Below, in pieces: positions 2,771 to 22,383 of a DNA stretch of 23,873 nucleotides (the first letter of the stretch is position 1; the number at the start of each line of letters is the position of its first letter). The stretch spans positions 1-23,873 of the IMG/VR virus record IMGVR_UViG_3300034073_001528; one strand, 5' to 3'. The notes beneath the pieces were generated by a model that was not told where the DNA came from, did no database searches, and saw only the letters and a program-made list of their open reading frames with translations. Source of the DNA: a virus. A program made the translations under genes and the position numbers.

Positions 2771-4480
2771 CTAGTAAAGCTCCGCTGTGCCTACGACGAG
2801 CGTAGGCTTGGTTTTGGTTGTGTCCAAAAGCTGCTGCAAGGTATCGCGCGTCTCTCGCATGATATCACGCATCTCGCGGTCGAACACGCCTTCCGCTGTT
2901 CGAACGCCACCGCCTTGGGCGGCTTGGATCTGTTGCTGAATGTTGGCCGCCTGATCTTGTCGAGCTATGGCAAGCTCCGTCGCTCGACGGGCGTCAGCCA
3001 TTGCCCGGAAACCTTCCATTGTGTTCGCGGCAGCCGCGCCTAGTCCCTGAATCTGCTCATTCAGTCCGGCCGCTTCGATGCGTGCTTGGCCAAGCTTATT
3101 GGCCGCTTCGCCAAACGCCGCGTCGAACACTTCCTGCGTAATCGCCCCGGCCGCCGCTAGGTCTTGCAGCTCTTGCACCGTGCCAGCGAACGCCGCTTCC
3201 GGCGGCGCGAATTGCTCAGCCAATTGGGCGCCGCGTTCGAGTAGTTCGCGATGGCGTTCCGCTCCCGCTGTCGCGTCAGCCCATTTGCCAGCCACTTCGG
3301 ACAGCTTGGCGGACAGGTCGGCTGAAGCTTGTGCGGCCGACTTCACCGCGTTCGCTGTCGCCGATCCAGCTTTGTCGCCCTGCTCCGCTAACGCCTTGGT
3401 TTGCTGGACAGCCTTCTCGGCTTCTGTGCTCACACCGGAAAACGCGAATTCAACGGCCGCTACGGCCCCTGCGGCCACGACTAGCGATGCCGCGAGCGTA
3501 GCCCAGCCCTGCGGCCCAGATAGAGCCTGGAACACGGCCTGTGCCATGCTCATGGCCCTGATGGCGGTGACGATGTTTTTCATTGCGGCTACAACGCGGC
3601 CAGCGTAGGTGACGGTCAGCAAGAATGACCCCGCGAACGCGATCACTTGGGCACTAGCCAACGCCGATCGGCCGTCGATGCTGCCGATCGCCGCGACCAT
3701 CGATTCCAACGCACCGACAACGCTAGACGCGGCAGGAAGCATTGCTTCGCCTAGGCTTGTGGCCAACGCTTGAACGCGTCCCTTGAGCATCTCGAATCGA
3801 CCGGCGACAGTTTGACCGCCAGCCTCGATCATGCCAGCGAATCGACCGCCCGCCGATGTCGCGTCGACCAAGGCTTGACGCACCTCGTCAAAGCTGACAG
3901 CACCCGCCGTCATACGCTCACGCACTTGAGCCATCGTTTCGCCCGTACGCTGCGCGATTTGCTGGAGTGGATTCCACCCCGCATTGACGAATTGCAGCAG
4001 ATCTTGACCGGTAAGTTTGCTGGCTGCCGCCACCTGCCCAATAACAAGCGACAACCGCGAAAACTGATCCGCGTTCCCCATCGAGACGTCGCCAAGCATC
4101 TTGGCAATCGGCACAACCTGCTGTGTCGCCACGCCGAATTGCAGCATCGTATTGGTGCCGCTAAGCAATGTTTCCAACCCGAGCGGCGACACAATATCAA
4201 ATTGCCGTAACTGGCCGAGGATCGACGACGCCTGTTGAGCGTTTCCGATCAGCACGCCGAATTGCATTTGCGTTCGTTCCAGGTTGGCTGCCAGCCCGAC
4301 GGCCCATTGAACAGCACCAGCGGCGGACAGCCCGCCGAATGCCAGCCCTGCAGCCCCAGCTACCTGCGTAGCCGTCGCACCGAATTGCTTGATGGCGGCT
4401 TGTGCCTTTGTCAGCCCCGCGTATAGCCCGCCAGCGCTCGCGGAAACGACGACAGCCAGCTTGCCTACGTTAGTCGCCAT
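2771..4480 (-). CDS. Tail tape-measure protein (569 aa)
   Basis: This protein sets tail length and acts in genome ejection from inside the tail tube. Residues 55-245 match the tape-measure N-terminal domain seen in many siphoviruses: NLERTQMQFGVLIGN near 67-80, LTGQDLLQFVNAGWNPL near 157-172, and GGQTVAGRFEMLKGRVQ near 221-237. Two hydrophobic stretches follow at about 278-295 and 325-348. The C-terminal 200 residues are Ala/Gln/Glu-rich helix, probably coiled coil. At 569 residues it is short. By the usual rule of about 1.5 angstroms per residue the tail would be roughly 85 nm (inference). The start overlaps the end of the GT reading frame by 11 bases, as expected for a gene directly after the chaperone pair. 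Confidence 0.95.
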   Translation of the reverse strand: MATNVGKLAVVVSASAGGLYAGLTKAQAAIKQFGATATQVAGAAGLAFGGLSAAGAVQWAVGLAANLERTQMQFGVLIGNAQQASSILGQLRQFDIVSPLGLETLLSGTNTMLQFGVATQQVVPIAKMLGDVSMGNADQFSRLSLVIGQVAAASKLTGQDLLQFVNAGWNPLQQIAQRTGETMAQVRERMTAGAVSFDEVRQALVDATSAGGRFAGMIEAGGQTVAGRFEMLKGRVQALATSLGEAMLPAASSVVGALESMVAAIGSIDGRSALASAQVIAFAGSFLLTVTYAGRVVAAMKNIVTAIRAMSMAQAVFQALSGPQGWATLAASLVVAAGAVAAVEFAFSGVSTEAEKAVQQTKALAEQGDKAGSATANAVKSAAQASADLSAKLSEVAGKWADATAGAERHRELLERGAQLAEQFAPPEAAFAGTVQELQDLAAAGAITQEVFDAAFGEAANKLGQARIEAAGLNEQIQGLGAAAANTMEGFRAMADARRATELAIARQDQAANIQQQIQAAQGGGVRTAEGVFDREMRDIMRETRDTLQQLLDTTKTKPTLVVGTAELY

Positions 4481-4775
4481 TCAATGCCGCCCTTCGTTCT
4501 GCTTTGGCTTTTCGCAGCTTTTCGAGCACCGCTTGCGGATCTTCTTTCGGCGGCCAGTGCGGCCACAATCCCGAGACGTTTTCGACGGCGTGAATGTGCC
4601 GCTGTGCGTACGCTTCCATCCGCATATCGGCCCTTACGTCGCCCCACGCCTCCTCAGACCAGTAACGCCGCCATCCGTCCGCCTGCGACGCGGTAAGCTC
4701 GTCAGCGAGCCTATCCGGATGGCTGTAGCCAAGGGCGAGACACAAGCGATATGCCCACTTCTCGCCCTCGGTTAG
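4470..4775 (-). CDS. Tail assembly chaperone GT extension, made by -1 frameshift from the G gene
   Basis: This frame has no convincing start of its own: its first in-frame start-like codon is a TTG without a good ribosome site. It continues the G gene after a -1 slip at A AAA AAC (4775-4781, minus strand), which sits immediately before G's TAA. The shifted reading gives LTEGEKWAYRLCLALGY and then the T domain, with GWRRYWSEEAWGD and DMRMEAYAQ, typical of phage tail assembly T-like proteins. It would add 101 residues to the 111 of G, for a fusion of about 212. In lambda-type phages G and GT bind the tape measure and recruit tube subunits, and the gene pair lies just before the tape measure as here. 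It ends inside the tape-measure start. Confidence 0.88.
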   Translation of the reverse strand, partial: LTEGEKWAYRLCLALGYSHPDRLADELTASQADGWRRYWSEEAWGDVRADMRMEAYAQRHIHAVENVSGLWPHWPPKEDPQAVLEKLRKAKAERRAALNGD

Positions 4776-5107
4776 TTTTTTGCTGCTGCCCCTGCCGAAT
4801 TGATTGTCATGGCTTCTTGACCGGCTTCCATCAGCACGTCAATCGGCCATCCGGCAAGCTCAGCCCTTCCCGCGTCGTTGTCGAGCGGTCGCGTTCCGTC
4901 CTGCTCGACAATCGACACGCTCAGCAGGTAAACGAACAAATCAACCAGCACCGGCCCCTCGATCTTGTCGTTGCCGCCAGTCTGCGCGTCGAGAATTCGC
5001 TTCGCGATTTCTAGCCCAGCCTTGCCGTCAGCCTCAACAAGCTCGAAGTCGAGCCCGCGATCCTGGTTGACGTATCGTGCCGCCTTCCGCTTCAGTTTGT
5101 AGCCCAC
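4772..5107 (-). CDS. Tail assembly chaperone G-like protein (111 aa)
   Basis: A small protein between the tail tube and tape-measure genes, the fixed position of the tail assembly chaperone. It starts at GTG, chosen because AGGAG lies seven bases upstream. The nearby ATG at 5112 is in another frame. The sequence (ARYVNQDRGLDFELVE, then VLVDLFVYLLSVSI and GWPIDVLMEAGQEAM) is mixed alpha/beta and has the size of G-like chaperones. The protein ends in AAAKN followed by TAA, and those last codons form the slippery sequence that lets some ribosomes continue into the T frame. It is not expected in the finished virion (family knowledge). Confidence 0.87.
   Translation of the reverse strand: MGYKLKRKAARYVNQDRGLDFELVEADGKAGLEIAKRILDAQTGGNDKIEGPVLVDLFVYLLSVSIVEQDGTRPLDNDAGRAELAGWPIDVLMEAGQEAMTINSAGAAAKN
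4775..4781 (-). promoter_or_regulatory. Slippery heptamer A AAA AAC for programmed -1 frameshift
   Basis: In the G frame the codons read GCA AAA AAC TAA, so the heptamer A AAA AAC fits X XXY YYZ exactly and is followed at once by the stop codon. Slipping back one base opens the frame that encodes the T domain. The same logic makes GT from G in phage lambda and relatives, although the heptamer differs (family knowledge). A stop directly after the slippery site is unusual and could tune the efficiency. Confidence 0.87.
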
Positions 5108-5128
5108 GCCATTGCTCCTAAATGACCG

Positions 5129-5521
5129 TTACGTAAACGCCGATGTCCGCTGAATAGTAACATCCCACGCGTTCGGCTGGTTGTGCTCGATCTGCGACGG
5201 TTCAACCTTGCTGACGAATCCGCTAAACGTCTGGACGGTTGGCGTCGCGTCGGTGTAGGTAATCGTCACCGTCTTGATTGCCTTCGATCCAAACAGCGTA
5301 TCGAGCGACGTTTGATCGGTGTCGTCCGGGTCGCGAAGCAGCCGGAAAGTAAATTCCGAATGCTTTTCGATTCCTGCGATGTACGTTTGCAGCGTCGCGT
5401 CCAGCGTCGTGATATCGACAAGCTCGCGGTCGCGCATTGGAGGCTTGGCGTTGACGATTAAATCGATGGTTTTCGAGTCGACGGTAACAACCGTCCCGAG
5501 TCCGATGATTGGCGTAGGCAT
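5129..5521 (-). CDS. Major tail (tube) protein (130 aa)
   Basis: Candidate tail tube subunit. The order terminator, this gene, G/GT, tape measure is the standard siphovirus tail order. Text such as PMRDRELVDITTLDATLQTYIAGIEKHSEF is typical of tube proteins, where a D-I-T-T-L-like loop follows the first strands. The C-terminal part (TVTITYTDATPTVQTFSGFVSKVEPSQIEHNQPNAWDVTIQRTSAF) is a run of beta strands ending in a conserved-looking I-Q-R strand. The start has TAGGAG upstream, where the TAG is the stop of the preceding gene. At 130 residues it is at the small end for tube proteins and carries no extra Ig-like decoration domain. Confidence 0.86.
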   Translation of the reverse strand: MPTPIIGLGTVVTVDSKTIDLIVNAKPPMRDRELVDITTLDATLQTYIAGIEKHSEFTFRLLRDPDDTDQTSLDTLFGSKAIKTVTITYTDATPTVQTFSGFVSKVEPSQIEHNQPNAWDVTIQRTSAFT

Positions 5522-14351: not shown

Positions 14352-15961
14352 TAGTCGCGCCCCACGATTTCCGACAGGTCAAACGATACGGCGTTCGGCA
14401 CCGTGAACGATTTCGCCTCACCTCTAACACCACGCCGTATCGAGTAGGTAGCCCCTCGAACAAATCCGTTGTGCGATATCACGCCGCTTGCATTGCTTGT
14501 CAGCGTGAACGTGTCGCCATCGTAGGCCGAGCCATCCGTGCCAGTGCCTTGCACCTGCTGGATTGTCACGACGACGCCTTGCAACGGCAATCCCGTTGTG
14601 CCGTAGCAGATGGCCGTGCCTGTCGACAGGTTGGCCGCAGCGGGAAGCGTAGGCGTCACCGCCGTCATCGAGTAGGTCTGCGACGTCGTGTTGGCGATCA
14701 CCTTGGTTGTTGGCGTGAAACTGTAGCCAGCCTTCGAAATGGCCACGCTGTATGTTGCCGCATCCAACGCAAACACGGCAACTCCGCTTGCGTTCGTCAC
14801 CGCGACATAGTTGTTGACGCCTTCCACAAGGCGAACGGTTGCGTTCTGCAATGCCGTCGTGCCATCATCCACCGTGACAGTGAACGTATACGCTCCGCTT
14901 CCGCTGCCGATCGAACCCCACGCTCCGCCGCCATGAGTGCCGCTTAGTTGCGTGTCGATTTCGGCTGCCGTTGGCAAGTCGCCCAACTGCGTATCCAGGT
15001 TAGCCGCAGCCAGCCCCAAAGCCGATCGAGTACCTGCCGCATCGAGCGGTGCCGTGTAATCCGCATCCGCCAACCGACTGCCGACCGTTACATCGAGGCG
15101 AGCGAGCTCGACCGCCAATTCCGTCCGCACCCCAGCCGCGATAGCGGTGATGGGGTGAACGTGATCCGGCAGCAGCACAAACTCATCGCCCACAGTCGGC
15201 GCGGATGTCAACGCCTCAGCCAGCGTGAACGTGCCGTTCGTCTGTGAGTAGGTGTCAATCGGCCTGCTTTCGCCCGCCAGCGTGCCCGTCAAAAATAGCA
15301 ATGTCTGATGGTCGTACGTGCCCGATGGAGCGGTCAGATTCGAGCGGAACACCGTCGTAGTCGGCGTCTGTCCGCTCGCTACCGTGCCATCAGTGACGTA
15401 GTTCGACTTACGCAGCGTGTCCATCAGCTTGCCGAACGAACCCGCCGCAACATGGCTTGCGTAAGCTTCATCCCATACGGCGTCAGCGTTTTCGCCAGCG
15501 GTCGGAATCGTCGGCAACGCCCCTCCGTTCCACTGCGTGACGTTGGCCGAGACCGTAAACGAGAACGCGGATAGCGTGCGGGTCGAGTATTCCCAAACCT
15601 GCTGCGCCGTTAGCGTGCTATACCCAGCCGCGCCAGACGCAAATAGCGCATCGAATACAGGCTGCTCCAGTACGCAACACACAAGCCGCACAGGCAACGC
15701 ACCAGCGACAGCCACATTGATTATCAATTCCCCGGTCGTATCAGTGTCGGTGGCGTCTAGCGTCGCGTAATACCGCCCGTCCGCAATATGCGTTGCCCCG
15801 CCGCTGTTCTTGCTACTCTCCGTGGTGCCGCCCCGCTTCCACAATTTGATATCGCTCGCGTTGATCGTCAGCGCGGTCTCAGCCGTCTTGCCGTCCGTGT
15901 CGTCCAAAAACGGCCCGAGCAACACCTCTTGGGATGCCGTAGACTTGCGTAATGGAATCAT
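14351..15961 (-). CDS. Multi-domain tail fibre-like protein (536 aa)
   Basis: The N-terminal 105 residues (VLLGPFLDDTDGKTAE, DIKLWKRGG, GRYYATLDATDTDTTG) form a beta domain often seen at the start of phage fibre proteins. A linker then holds QVWEYSTRTL and NADAVWDEAYASHVAAGSFGKLMD (near 158-181), short units repeated in many phage fibres, here once each. Residues about 357-434 are an Ig-like or carboxypeptidase-regulatory-like fold (TVTVDDGTTALQNATVRLVE, YSVAISKAGYSF), followed by a second, similar domain to the end (LPLQGVVVTIQQV, TYSIRRGVRGE). Such modules bind sugars or stack virion fibres. The gene is coupled to the lectin gene by ATGA, so both probably serve host recognition. Confidence 0.85.
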   Translation of the reverse strand: MIPLRKSTASQEVLLGPFLDDTDGKTAETALTINASDIKLWKRGGTTESSKNSGGATHIADGRYYATLDATDTDTTGELIINVAVAGALPVRLVCCVLEQPVFDALFASGAAGYSTLTAQQVWEYSTRTLSAFSFTVSANVTQWNGGALPTIPTAGENADAVWDEAYASHVAAGSFGKLMDTLRKSNYVTDGTVASGQTPTTTVFRSNLTAPSGTYDHQTLLFLTGTLAGESRPIDTYSQTNGTFTLAEALTSAPTVGDEFVLLPDHVHPITAIAAGVRTELAVELARLDVTVGSRLADADYTAPLDAAGTRSALGLAAANLDTQLGDLPTAAEIDTQLSGTHGGGAWGSIGSGSGAYTFTVTVDDGTTALQNATVRLVEGVNNYVAVTNASGVAVFALDAATYSVAISKAGYSFTPTTKVIANTTSQTYSMTAVTPTLPAAANLSTGTAICYGTTGLPLQGVVVTIQQVQGTGTDGSAYDGDTFTLTSNASGVISHNGFVRGATYSIRRGVRGEAKSFTVPNAVSFDLSEIVGRD

Positions 15962-16704
15962 GGCCGCATCCCTTGAGACATGTAATGCGAATGAAATAAC
16001 ACCGGCTTAGCGACTCCGCCAGCGGAAACAACGCGACTCGGCAATATCATCGGCTGCGGGTATATGATACGCGGATGCTCAACCCACGTCGGCGAATTCG
16101 TCGCAGTCAAATCAAGCTTATCTTTCCAACGGTCGACGTCCGACTGGCCATACCGACCGCCCATCGGGTAATACGCCGCAAGTGACGCCGGTCTTACCGT
16201 CGACACGTCGCGGCCATCAGCGAGCCCCTCGATTTCCGCCGCCTTCAATCCGGTTGACCAAATGCCAAACTCGGCCATCCGGCCATTGAAATAATCCTGC
16301 GCTACGCCGTTATAGATTAGGCCAGAAAATTGCGTAAAGCTTAACGTCGGGGAAGCGGTCGCGTCTGTGCTTACGGCTTGGCTTACTCCGTCCAGATAAA
16401 TGCGATGTTCTCCGCCCTGCATGACTGCCGCGACGTGATACCATTGACCAGTGGATAACGACGTTGTTCCGCTGATGTTGATGGATTGCGTCAAACCGTA
16501 CTGGTAATAATACTGCATCACATTCGACGAATTGAACAGAAACTCCTGAATTAGCACCCCAGTGGCGCTGCCACGCATGTAAATCGTATGTTGCGCGCTT
16601 CCGGTCGAGCGATAGACCCATCCCGCGACAGTGTACGCCGCGCCTCCAATCATGCCCGTGTAGCGCAAATACTGGCTGGACGCGCTCGCAAAACTGCGTG
16701 CCAT
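15958..16704 (-). CDS. LamG / concanavalin A-like lectin protein (248 aa)
   Basis: Residues about 5-165 form a LamG-type jelly roll. The typical strands are YTVAGWVYR near 24-32, LSTGQWYHVAAVMQGGEHRIYLDG near 83-106 (the G-x-W-[HY]-H-[VI]-A strand and the [IL]-Y-[VL]-D-G turn), and YFNGRMAEFGIWSTGLKAAEIEGL near 137-160. The remaining 80 residues mention LAAYYPMGGRYGQSDVDRW and a basic, aromatic tail. Such domains bind polysaccharides and are common in phage adhesins and in planctomycete surface proteins. There is no signal peptide, which favours a virion part over a secreted host-type protein. The start follows the preceding stop by three bases. Confidence 0.88.
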   Translation of the reverse strand: MARSFASASSQYLRYTGMIGGAAYTVAGWVYRSTGSAQHTIYMRGSATGVLIQEFLFNSSNVMQYYYQYGLTQSINISGTTSLSTGQWYHVAAVMQGGEHRIYLDGVSQAVSTDATASPTLSFTQFSGLIYNGVAQDYFNGRMAEFGIWSTGLKAAEIEGLADGRDVSTVRPASLAAYYPMGGRYGQSDVDRWKDKLDLTATNSPTWVEHPRIIYPQPMILPSRVVSAGGVAKPVLFHSHYMSQGMRP

Positions 16705-19353: not shown

Positions 19354-20127
19354 TTATTTCGCCTCTGACAGTTCGAGAACAATTCCCTGACGATCTTCCT
19401 GCGATAGTTGTGAACCCGGTGGCATGCGTCCAGACAACACGGCTGCCACGGCCGATAGACTCACTTTGCAATCGACCTCCTCACCTCCAAGATACACGCC
19501 GCCCTTTGGGGCCGCGATGTCCGTTCCATGGCATTTGCCGCAATGCTTGTTGGTCAAAGGAAAACCCCGCGCCGGCGACACAGCGCTGGCGGAACGCTGC
19601 GGAGGATCTTGTGCCGGCGCGGGGGGCGTGGATACCGTTGGCTGGACGATCTGCCATTTGCCGTCGCGTAATTCGATCTGGAGAGTTTGCGGCGGTTGCT
19701 GGATCGGCTGGACAATCGCCGCTTGAACAGCGGGCTGACTGGCTTGCAGAGTCAACGCTAACGCGGCAGTTTGGCCGTATCCCTTGAGTCCTTGATCGGC
19801 TAGTTGCTGGGCTCCTCTGGTCAATTCCGCAGCCTGACGCAATACGGCGGCCGGATCGAGCGAATACGCTTGGACGGCCGTTGACAGACCGTAGACGCTT
19901 CCACCCTGCGGAGCGATCAGCGTAGCGGCGGCGCCGTTGCCAGGAGCGTAGTTATTGATGATTGAAATGGGTGGCTGTGCAATCACGGGTGCCGCCACGA
20001 CAGCGGCCGCAACGTGATGTTGCTGCGACACAAACCGGCAACGGCTGCCGAACAGCCCGCACCGCGAACACGCCCAACAGTCGCTAGCGACTATTGCCAG
20101 CATGCAAAATATGATTGCTCGAATCAT
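19354..20127 (-). CDS. Exported cytochrome c-domain protein (257 aa)
   Basis: A signal-like N-terminus (MIRAIIFCMLAIVASDCWAC) is followed by a Cys-rich spot (CSRCGLFGSRC, residues 20-30) and a long Ala/Gln/Pro-rich region to about 185. The C-terminal 70 residues form a small class I cytochrome c: covalent heme site CGKCH at 196-200 followed by G-x-x, then GVYLGGEEVDC near 210-220, and the distal-ligand candidate Met235 in SGRMPPGSQLSQEDRQGIVLEL, which is the usual M-P-P-x-x-x-L-[ST]-x-x-[ED]-x loop before the last helix. Export is required for heme attachment, which the signal explains. It is coupled to the upstream heme-motif gene by ATGA. Its function in a phage is unknown. Confidence 0.85.
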   Translation of the reverse strand: MIRAIIFCMLAIVASDCWACSRCGLFGSRCRFVSQQHHVAAAVVAAPVIAQPPISIINNYAPGNGAAATLIAPQGGSVYGLSTAVQAYSLDPAAVLRQAAELTRGAQQLADQGLKGYGQTAALALTLQASQPAVQAAIVQPIQQPPQTLQIELRDGKWQIVQPTVSTPPAPAQDPPQRSASAVSPARGFPLTNKHCGKCHGTDIAAPKGGVYLGGEEVDCKVSLSAVAAVLSGRMPPGSQLSQEDRQGIVLELSEAK

Positions 20128-21620
20128 TTCGCCACCTCCAAGCTTTGCCTCAGCAGGTCCTGATAGATCGTCTCAAAGTCTGGACGATTGATCCGCAAAC
20201 CTGCCCGCAAGTATGCCGCCACGCCGTCTATCTCACGTGTCGGATTGTCCGGCCCTAGGGCCACGTCCAACGCGTTCCGCTTATCGTCTGGTCCAATCAT
20301 GTATCCAAGCTCTAACGCGGCCCTACGGCCGTCTATCCGCTCATAATCATAAGCGTAGAGAACGTCCCGAAGCAACTGACCAACTTGAGCCACTAGCGAC
20401 TTGTCGGCCTGGAAATTGATTCCGATAGGCACACAGCGAGCGATTGCCGCCGAGTAATCACGGCGTGCGCGGCCCAGCAATCCATCAGCCGAGTCCACGT
20501 CAAGCGCGTACAGTTCGGCTAGCTTGTCGATCGCTTCTTCGCGGCTGATGCCCAGGTTTGCCAAGTCGCTCACGACGTCGAACCGCCCCGACTTTAGCAC
20601 CGTCTGAACGTCGTTCGGGAACTCACGCCAACCTTCCGCACGCTCGATGTTGTGACACACGATGCACGATCGAGCAGGTCTAAGGCGTGCCGTATTTGGC
20701 GGCGGTATGTTGTGATCGCGGACAAGTTCTGGAGGGGCCTCACGCACTAGCTTTCCATTGCCGTCGAACAGCGTGTATTCAATCATGCCGTTCGTCAACG
20801 TCAGCAATACTTCGCGGCCCTGATCTTTGAAAATAAACAGGTTCTTAAGCGGATGCCGTTCGGCCTGCTGACCGCCATCGGCGATGTCACGCGTTACGCT
20901 CCACAGCCCGCCGCTCAGCCCAAGTCCGAAGTCCGCTCGACGAGGCTTGGCGGTCACATCTGATGCCGTTAACGCGGCTCTGCGTTCGCCTCCTGCGTCT
21001 TGGGTAGCTCGAAGAAAAACGCCACGGCCCCGCAAGTAGCGATCAAACTCGGTTAGCCCGCCAGCGTCCTTATCCGTATCCGTCGGCAATTGCCGGAACT
21101 CGTAGTAGGCACCGCCGTCGAGCGTATCGAGCGCTTTCGCCACCCACCAATCAGCCCGATAGACAGCGCCGGCGGATAGCGTGAGTTGTGCCAGCAACAC
21201 GGCCTGATCTTGCGGCACCGTCGGTGCAATCACCGCCACATCAACGCCGCTATTGGCTTTCGGGACGTGCAAGTACGGGTCGATTTTCGCGAGCGAATCC
21301 CATGTCGCCAGTGTCTTGGCGATCGTCGTTTTTCGCGGGCTGAATCGTCGCAAGTCCACCCGCATCATCCAGCCGTTGGCAATCACGTCAGCCCGCTGGA
21401 TCGTCGACGCCTGCGACACCGAAGTATTGAGCGCGAAATTCAGCAGCGGCACCCACTGCTCGTTGCCCCAGGGCGGGATTGCCAGATAGCGAAGAAACGG
21501 CCGATCGGCTTCCGGTTGCTGGACCAGGTCCGTCAGCGCCCAACCAACCCAATCCGGCGGGATTGGTTGGCGTGCGGGCGGATCGGCACAGAGCACACAA
21601 GCCAGCAACGCTGCAATCAT
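20124..21620 (-). CDS. Large exported protein with one c-type heme motif (498 aa)
   Basis: I start at ATG 21620, which overlaps the stop of the 45-aa gene (ATGA) and gives a short hydrophobic leader (MIAALLACVLCADPP). It may be a Sec or lipoprotein signal, since LAC or VLC could be a lipobox. The frame is open for 31 more codons upstream, but that part lies in the small gene. Residues about 40-290 are a large unrecognised region (RVDLRRFSPRKTTIAK, LATWDSLAKIDPYLHV, then TNGMIEYTLFDGNGKLVREAPPELV). A heme motif CIVCH stands at 319-323 (SCIVCHNIERAEGWRE), and about 170 helical residues follow. The layout recalls planctomycete secreted cytochrome proteins. No heme ligand methionine is obvious. 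Confidence 0.82.
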   Translation of the reverse strand: MIAALLACVLCADPPARQPIPPDWVGWALTDLVQQPEADRPFLRYLAIPPWGNEQWVPLLNFALNTSVSQASTIQRADVIANGWMMRVDLRRFSPRKTTIAKTLATWDSLAKIDPYLHVPKANSGVDVAVIAPTVPQDQAVLLAQLTLSAGAVYRADWWVAKALDTLDGGAYYEFRQLPTDTDKDAGGLTEFDRYLRGRGVFLRATQDAGGERRAALTASDVTAKPRRADFGLGLSGGLWSVTRDIADGGQQAERHPLKNLFIFKDQGREVLLTLTNGMIEYTLFDGNGKLVREAPPELVRDHNIPPPNTARLRPARSCIVCHNIERAEGWREFPNDVQTVLKSGRFDVVSDLANLGISREEAIDKLAELYALDVDSADGLLGRARRDYSAAIARCVPIGINFQADKSLVAQVGQLLRDVLYAYDYERIDGRRAALELGYMIGPDDKRNALDVALGPDNPTREIDGVAAYLRAGLRINRPDFETIYQDLLRQSLEVAK

Positions 21621-21754
21621 CGTATCCACCGCCACGCCGCACACGCCAAGATATGCAAGCCGAACAGCAGCAGCGACAACACGCCCAAGAGCCCCGCTAA
21701 GCTGATTGACCAATCCTCAATAAAGTACAACCATTCCCTCGTCTGCAAGCTCAT
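21617..21754 (-). CDS. Tiny single-span membrane protein (45 aa)
   Basis: A frame of 45 codons exactly fills the space between protease and cytochrome genes, with ATGA overlaps at both ends (start at 21754, stop at 21617-21619). The protein reads MSLQTREWLYFIEDWSISLA and then a hydrophobic helix (GLLGVLSLLLFGLHILACAAW) closed by WRWIR. The two overlaps and the full hydrophobic helix make a real gene likely, despite the small size. The basic C-terminus suggests N-out, C-in by the positive-inside rule. It could be a pinholin-type or regulatory membrane peptide, or a membrane anchor for its neighbours. No homologue is recognised. Confidence 0.7.
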   Translation of the reverse strand: MSLQTREWLYFIEDWSISLAGLLGVLSLLLFGLHILACAAWRWIR

Positions 21755-22383
21755 TTCATCCGCTCCACGCTAAGCCCTTCACGCACCAGCAACACCAACC
21801 CGCCAGCCCTCGCCACCAACCGGAACAATTCCGCGTCCGCCACAGGATCAACCGGCGCAGGCGTCTTCGGTCGCGGCGGCCCGTATGCCTCAACCGTCAG
21901 CCCGCGTTCCCAATCGCCGATCGTCATTCGCGGATCGTACACCGGCCTCATCAAATCCGTGCCTCCATGGTCGAGACCGAGCACATGACCTAGCTCATGT
22001 TCCGCAACAACTTGCAAGCCAATTCGATTTACGGGAATGGGCGTGCCAATGGCCCACGGTTCGCGGGCATCAAATCGCATTTGCAGCGGTGTCGTCCGGC
22101 CTTGCAAATACGGCAACTCGGCGTCAGCCAACACGCCACCCGGTTGCTGGCTCATCGTTGTCACCGTCAGCGATTCTCGCGAGTCAACCTCCGCAAACTC
22201 GATGCCGCAGACGGCTTGCCAAGAGTCGCAAGCAGCGCGGAACACGCGGCGGAACAAATCGCGGTCGATGCCCGGCAAGCCCGTCAGGGCCACGCGATAG
22301 CGGATAGTTGTTCCGCGCGGCCAGCGTGCTGGATTGCTTCCGAGGGGCGCGGGCTTGTAGCCGCAGATAATCCTATCGGACAT
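21751..22383 (-). CDS. Matrixin-like zinc metalloprotease (210 aa)
   Basis: The zinc motif HELGHVLGLDH at residues 129-139 fits HExxHxxGxxH exactly, with Glu130 as the catalytic base, and is followed by LM (144-145) as the Met-turn. The upstream part is typical for the matrixin fold: TTIRYRVAL near 25-33, FRRVFRAACDSWQAVCGIEFAEV near 44-66 (the A-x-x-x-W-x-x-[VI] helix and F-x-E-[VA]). No signal peptide is visible, so it works in the cell, in the virion, or after lysis. Residues 150-210 are a Pro-rich link and a short hydrophobic helix. Phage matrixins are rare. It could cut host envelope proteins or virion precursors. It starts three bases after the 93-aa gene. Confidence 0.9.
   Translation of the reverse strand: MSDRIICGYKPAPLGSNPARWPRGTTIRYRVALTGLPGIDRDLFRRVFRAACDSWQAVCGIEFAEVDSRESLTVTTMSQQPGGVLADAELPYLQGRTTPLQMRFDAREPWAIGTPIPVNRIGLQVVAEHELGHVLGLDHGGTDLMRPVYDPRMTIGDWERGLTVEAYGPPRPKTPAPVDPVADAELFRLVARAGGLVLLVREGLSVERMK

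Follow-up and report, generated by a model that had tools for sequence, protein, structure and literature searches.

Between the major tail protein gene and the tape measure gene of the virus record IMGVR_UViG_3300034073_001528 lie two overlapping reading frames, G and T, and the locus raises the question of how the second of these is translated. The window analysed here is the whole 23,873 nt (23.9-kb) of that record, and its tail genes are encoded on the minus strand. Immediately upstream of G is the gene for the major tail (tube) protein (5129..5521, (-)), which matches phrog_158 major tail protein (E 2e-12), its match to the lambda-like tail tube family PF16460 (27.6 bits) falling slightly below the cut-off. 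The start of the tape measure protein gene (2771..4480, (-); phrog_9959, E 7e-27; PF20155 TMP_3, 69.8 bits) overlaps the end of T. The resulting order, major tail protein-G-T-tape measure, is that of phage lambda, the type case of the textbook frameshifted tail chaperones, in which a -1 slip near the end of G extends it into T and G and GT are made at a ratio of 30:1 (PMC5009743). Elsewhere in the window, two ORFs at 19357-20127 and 20127-21713 (-) carry the c-type cytochrome haem motifs CGKCH and CIVCH, the first with a sub-threshold match to PF13442, and are adjoined at 21754-22383 by a matrixin-type metalloprotease (PF00413, 55 bits), all of which could be either unusual phage cargo or host flank. 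A Concanavalin A-like lectin domain protein (15961-16704, (-); Laminin_G_3, 78 bits) is possibly a receptor-binding or decoration protein.

Since G had no match in sequence-family searches, its fold was searched using an AlphaFold2 prediction with a pLDDT of 73, a value that differed between the five models. The HK97 tail assembly chaperone (PDB 2ob9) came out as the top match of the predicted fold (Foldseek probability 1.00, TM 0.60, E 0.014; VIA Z 7.8), yet with 12-13% sequence identity, and YqbN (3klu) was among the next-ranked matches. G is therefore predicted to have the tail assembly chaperone fold, with moderate scores and top matches that agree with the place of the gene. T gave a weak match to PF06223 Phage_tail_T (15.2 bits against a cut-off of 25.9), the family of lambda T, and a weak sub-threshold match to phrog_337 tail protein; neither named phages (searched by tblastn) nor bacterial genomes yielded a relative of T. 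Comparison with related viral contigs indicates that T is under constraint at the protein level, as its substitutions fall mostly at third codon positions; against L003, for example, the first, second and third positions show 1, 5 and 11 changes.

Read 5′ to 3′ on the minus strand, the sequence at the junction of the two frames is ...GGG GCA GCA GCA AAA AAC TAA CCG AGG GCG AG... The G frame is open from a GTG at 5107, preceded by a Shine-Dalgarno-like AGGAG (5115..5119, (-)), to the TAA at 4774-4772 and encodes a putative tail assembly chaperone of 111 aa with the C-terminus ...AAAKN (4772..5107, (-)). Its stop codon (4772..4774, (-)) directly abuts a slippery heptamer A_AAA_AAC in the correct phase (4775..4781, (-); the plus strand reads GTTTTTT). 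The -1 frame stays open between 4838 and its own stop at 4472-4470, and the T part of the predicted GT product (4470..4775, (-)) comprises 101 residues counted from the slip point. The codon following a -1 slip would be CTA (4775-4773), giving the gap-free join ...AAAKN-LTEGEKWAYR... The preliminary description had proposed such a heptamer with the stop directly behind it, leaving the strand unstated, and a T frame opened by a one-base slip with the join AKN-LTEGEK; both are found exactly so, on the minus strand at 4781-4775 and 4774-4772. The heptamer by itself carries little weight, since the minus strand of the window has five copies of AAAAAAC. Its phase, the immediate stop, a downstream hairpin and the conservation in other contigs are the features that go beyond chance.

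Scans of viral contigs identified eleven others with the junction: L002, which is essentially identical to the window; L003-L005, with G 84-89% identical to that of the window; a second clade of L010-L014 and L016, with G 57-62% identical; and the remote locus L020, whose T is 30% identical. T identity in the two near clades is 67-100%. The heptamer AAAAAAC followed by an immediate stop is invariant in all eleven (11/11). The near clade and L020 use TAA as this stop whereas the second clade uses TGA, so that a stop has been kept through a base change. An alignment of relatives, which the preliminary description had put forward as a check, thus returned an invariant heptamer and stop, and no T with an independent start of its own was found among them.

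The hairpin (4729..4771, (-)), which was absent from the preliminary description, is predicted directly behind the stop, its conserved core pairing 4768-4761 with 4739-4732 and starting 6 nt behind the heptamer, within the distance of about 5-9 nt at which a stable stimulatory structure is expected. For the 50 nt that follow the heptamer, the minimum free energy is -27.7 kcal/mol, with a z of -5.0 relative to dinucleotide-shuffled sequences, and this stretch ranks among the most stable 0.2% of windows in the neighbourhood. A strong hairpin is predicted at the usual spacing in all eleven other contigs; that of L020 has a shorter loop and keeps 8/8 core pairs, one by a double change from G-C to C-G and one as G-U. 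Such a structure is what usually stimulates bacterial -1 frameshifting from downstream, and its presence suits the low shiftiness of A_AAA_AAC. The sequence upstream of the heptamer was inspected by eye for a stimulatory internal Shine-Dalgarno element, and the G-rich stretch seen there was not convincing.

The sequence and phase of the site, its conservation, the predicted hairpin, the gene context and the fold match all point in one direction, and from them we infer that ribosomes slip at this site. The junction is very probably a -1 programmed ribosomal frameshift signal for a G/GT tail assembly chaperone pair as in lambda. The earlier proposal of a chaperone G/GT pair made by -1 frameshifting is thus supported by gene order, fold, the conserved heptamer and stop, the hairpin and the lack of a conserved start for T.

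Of the other ways in which the two frames could be joined, the one that survives best is transcriptional slippage, in which RNA polymerase would insert one A in the A6 run and the mRNA would be read through as ...AAAKK-LTEGEK...; the six-A run is present, one added A yields the identical frame, and the less related loci L040 and L049 have seven or eight A. Six A is however a short run for bacterial transcriptional slippage, the C behind the run and the abutting stop are both conserved, and polymerase slippage does not require the stable hairpin found at the distance of a ribosomal stimulator. We consider this explanation very improbable. Still less probable is that T is an independent gene translated by re-initiation after the G stop, either at TTG 4745 or at a later ATG. 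This TTG, ten codons into T, is the earliest ATG, GTG or TTG of the frame and would give MCLALGYSHPDR beginning with Met. It is shared with L002, L004 and L020 but is missing from L003, L005, L010-L014 and L016; no start codon is common to the eleven contigs, and candidate starts lie at differing places. The TTG moreover has no good Shine-Dalgarno sequence ahead of it and is itself preceded by the strongly conserved LTEGE stretch. A sequencing or assembly error, or the decay of one chaperone gene into two frames, would suit a homopolymer run as the usual place of indel errors but is already contradicted by the relatives and is extremely unlikely, given the identical break, heptamer and stop (TAA or TGA) in eleven other contigs with G identity down to 57% and the recurrence of the break in further lineages.

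Under programmed ribosomal frameshifting, the majority of ribosomes would read GCA AAA AAC and terminate at the abutting TAA to give G. A minority, delayed by the downstream hairpin while tRNA-Lys and tRNA-Asn occupy A_AAA_AAC, would slip to AAA_AAA and continue with CTA ACC GAG..., producing a GT fusion of 212 aa. As the 0-frame codon that comes next is a stop, the tRNA-Leu for the shifted CTA would probably have to compete with release factor within one pause. E. coli ribosomes slip far less readily on A_AAA_AAC than on A_AAA_AAG (PMC5009743), and the efficiency of frameshifting could therefore be low.

The junction resembles lambda G/GT in gene order, in the predicted slip near the end of G and in T being read as an extension of G, with a T weakly similar to that of lambda (PF06223). 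It differs in its heptamer, A_AAA_AAC as opposed to G_GGA_AAG, and in the distance from heptamer to stop, which is 0 nt here and 15 nt in lambda. A_AAA_AAC is known as the g-t shift site of the archaeal virus HCTV-2 (PMC5009743). AAAAAAC directly before a stop has been published as a predicted frameshift in the Acinetobacter phages vB_AbaS_Loki and IME_AB3 (PMC5313236). In both sequences the heptamer abuts the stop codon of G, which is TAA in Loki and TGA in IME_AB3, and a hairpin lies 8 nt downstream of the heptamer; their chaperones share the abutting AAAAAAC and hairpin with the window, although the sequences of G and T differ. Given the lambda precedent, the junction of the window represents a known type of signal, in a compact form already described for the Acinetobacter phages. 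The statement in the preliminary description that an abutting stop is uncommon holds against the mean slippery-to-stop distances of 26 and 36 nt in two phage sets (PMC10885494) and the 15 nt of lambda, yet the arrangement recurs in several lineages, including the Acinetobacter phages (PMC5313236). Synechococcus phage S-CBS2 likewise has a heptamer directly before a TAA in a gene pair of its tail region, but the heptamer is A_AAA_AAG and the record annotates two separate hypothetical proteins and no frameshift. S-CBS2-like cyanophages (L263, L268, L275 and L362:995-1004) also have A_AAA_AAG with an abutting TAA among their tail genes. At the same junction, the S-CBS2 relative Synechococcus phage S-CRES3 (L363:993-1004) has GGGAAAG one codon before the stop; judging from these sequences, both heptamer and spacing appear to change between the two relatives. 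Beyond phages, the stop is the codon after the heptamer in the -1 sites of Rous sarcoma virus and barley yellow dwarf virus (PMC4373837), which differ in using eukaryotic ribosomes, other heptamers and other fusion products.

The occurrence of the abutting stop in other lineages was assessed by scanning viral contigs for AAAAAACTNACNGARGSNGA, with the third base of the shifted Leu codon left free. Sites were taken as frame-switch-shaped if the 0 frame was open upstream and the -1 frame open downstream and closed upstream, the 0-frame stop being unconstrained. The scan returned 99 readable sites, 23 of which (16 distinct sequences) were frame-switch-shaped. The free base was A or G, giving a 0-frame stop, in 23/23 of these and in 35/76 of the others (41 with C or T), a difference with a Fisher p of 9e-7 when all sites are counted, few independent lineages being present among them. 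The pattern also fixed the first residues of T, and the resemblance of the T starts of other lineages is thus by construction. Outside the group of the window, frame-switch sites were found in L020, L040/L064, L041, L049, L051, L072, L077, L094, L119 and L122. The junction adjoins tail genes in L040, L041, L049, L051, L064, L072, L077, L094 and L122; among the tested lineages the sole exception is L119, whose one named relative, Serratia phage OS31, has an annotated tail assembly chaperone. Judged from Pfam matches and by eye, the T domains are of several kinds, with matches to PF06223 in L041 (above cut-off), L051 and L119 and none in L040/L064, L049 or L072/L094. A clearly stable hairpin is predicted in about half of the other lineages, those of L040, L064, L094, L119 and L122 being weak or insignificant. 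With an AAAAAAG variant of the scan, a stop was present in 14/14 frame-switch sites and strong hairpins were absent; one group of these sites falls with the S-CBS2 tail region. In bacterial genomes the same DNA pattern gave frame-switch sites in 3/118 of the matches listed, a chance-like figure, and in Streptococcus, Enterococcus and Brochothrix the relatives of the L072 T domain have no A_AAA_AAC at the G stop. In a set of viral contigs (L258, L259, L307, L341, L280, L295, L310 and L327), a frame of 287-411 codons ends with A_AAA_AAG and an abutting TAA or TGA and has a conserved -1 extension of 126-128 aa (VTEAE...). The one extension compared with PHROG gave no match, named phages gave none for another, and frame and extension are a candidate new frameshift gene.

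The abutting arrangement recurs in several chaperone lineages, always with TAA or TGA, which is consistent with selection for competition between termination and slippage. The exchange of TAA and TGA together with the 23/23 count makes it less likely that G merely happens to end at this point. In HIV constructs in human cells, a stop right after the heptamer lowers -1 frameshifting in a release-factor-dependent manner (PMC4373837), and the same effect is cited in that paper for E. coli reporters as a bacterial system. With these precedents the earlier idea that the G/GT ratio depends on competition with termination is reasonable, and we regard it as plausible by analogy. A more far-reaching proposal, which we offer tentatively and consider somewhat doubtful, is that abutment behind A_AAA_AA(C/G) is a selected design that has arisen or spread repeatedly, in which release factor would compete with slippage, the G:GT ratio would answer to release-factor activity or the state of infection, and the hairpin would offset the weakness of A_AAA_AAC.

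The junction adds an uncultivated phage lineage to those with tail chaperones predicted to be made by frameshifting, with a signal that is compact and fully readable. Artificial HIV constructs, together with a small number of eukaryotic viruses, have so far been the main basis for the idea that release factors set the level of frameshifting, and because its stop abuts the heptamer, the junction would provide a natural phage test of this idea.
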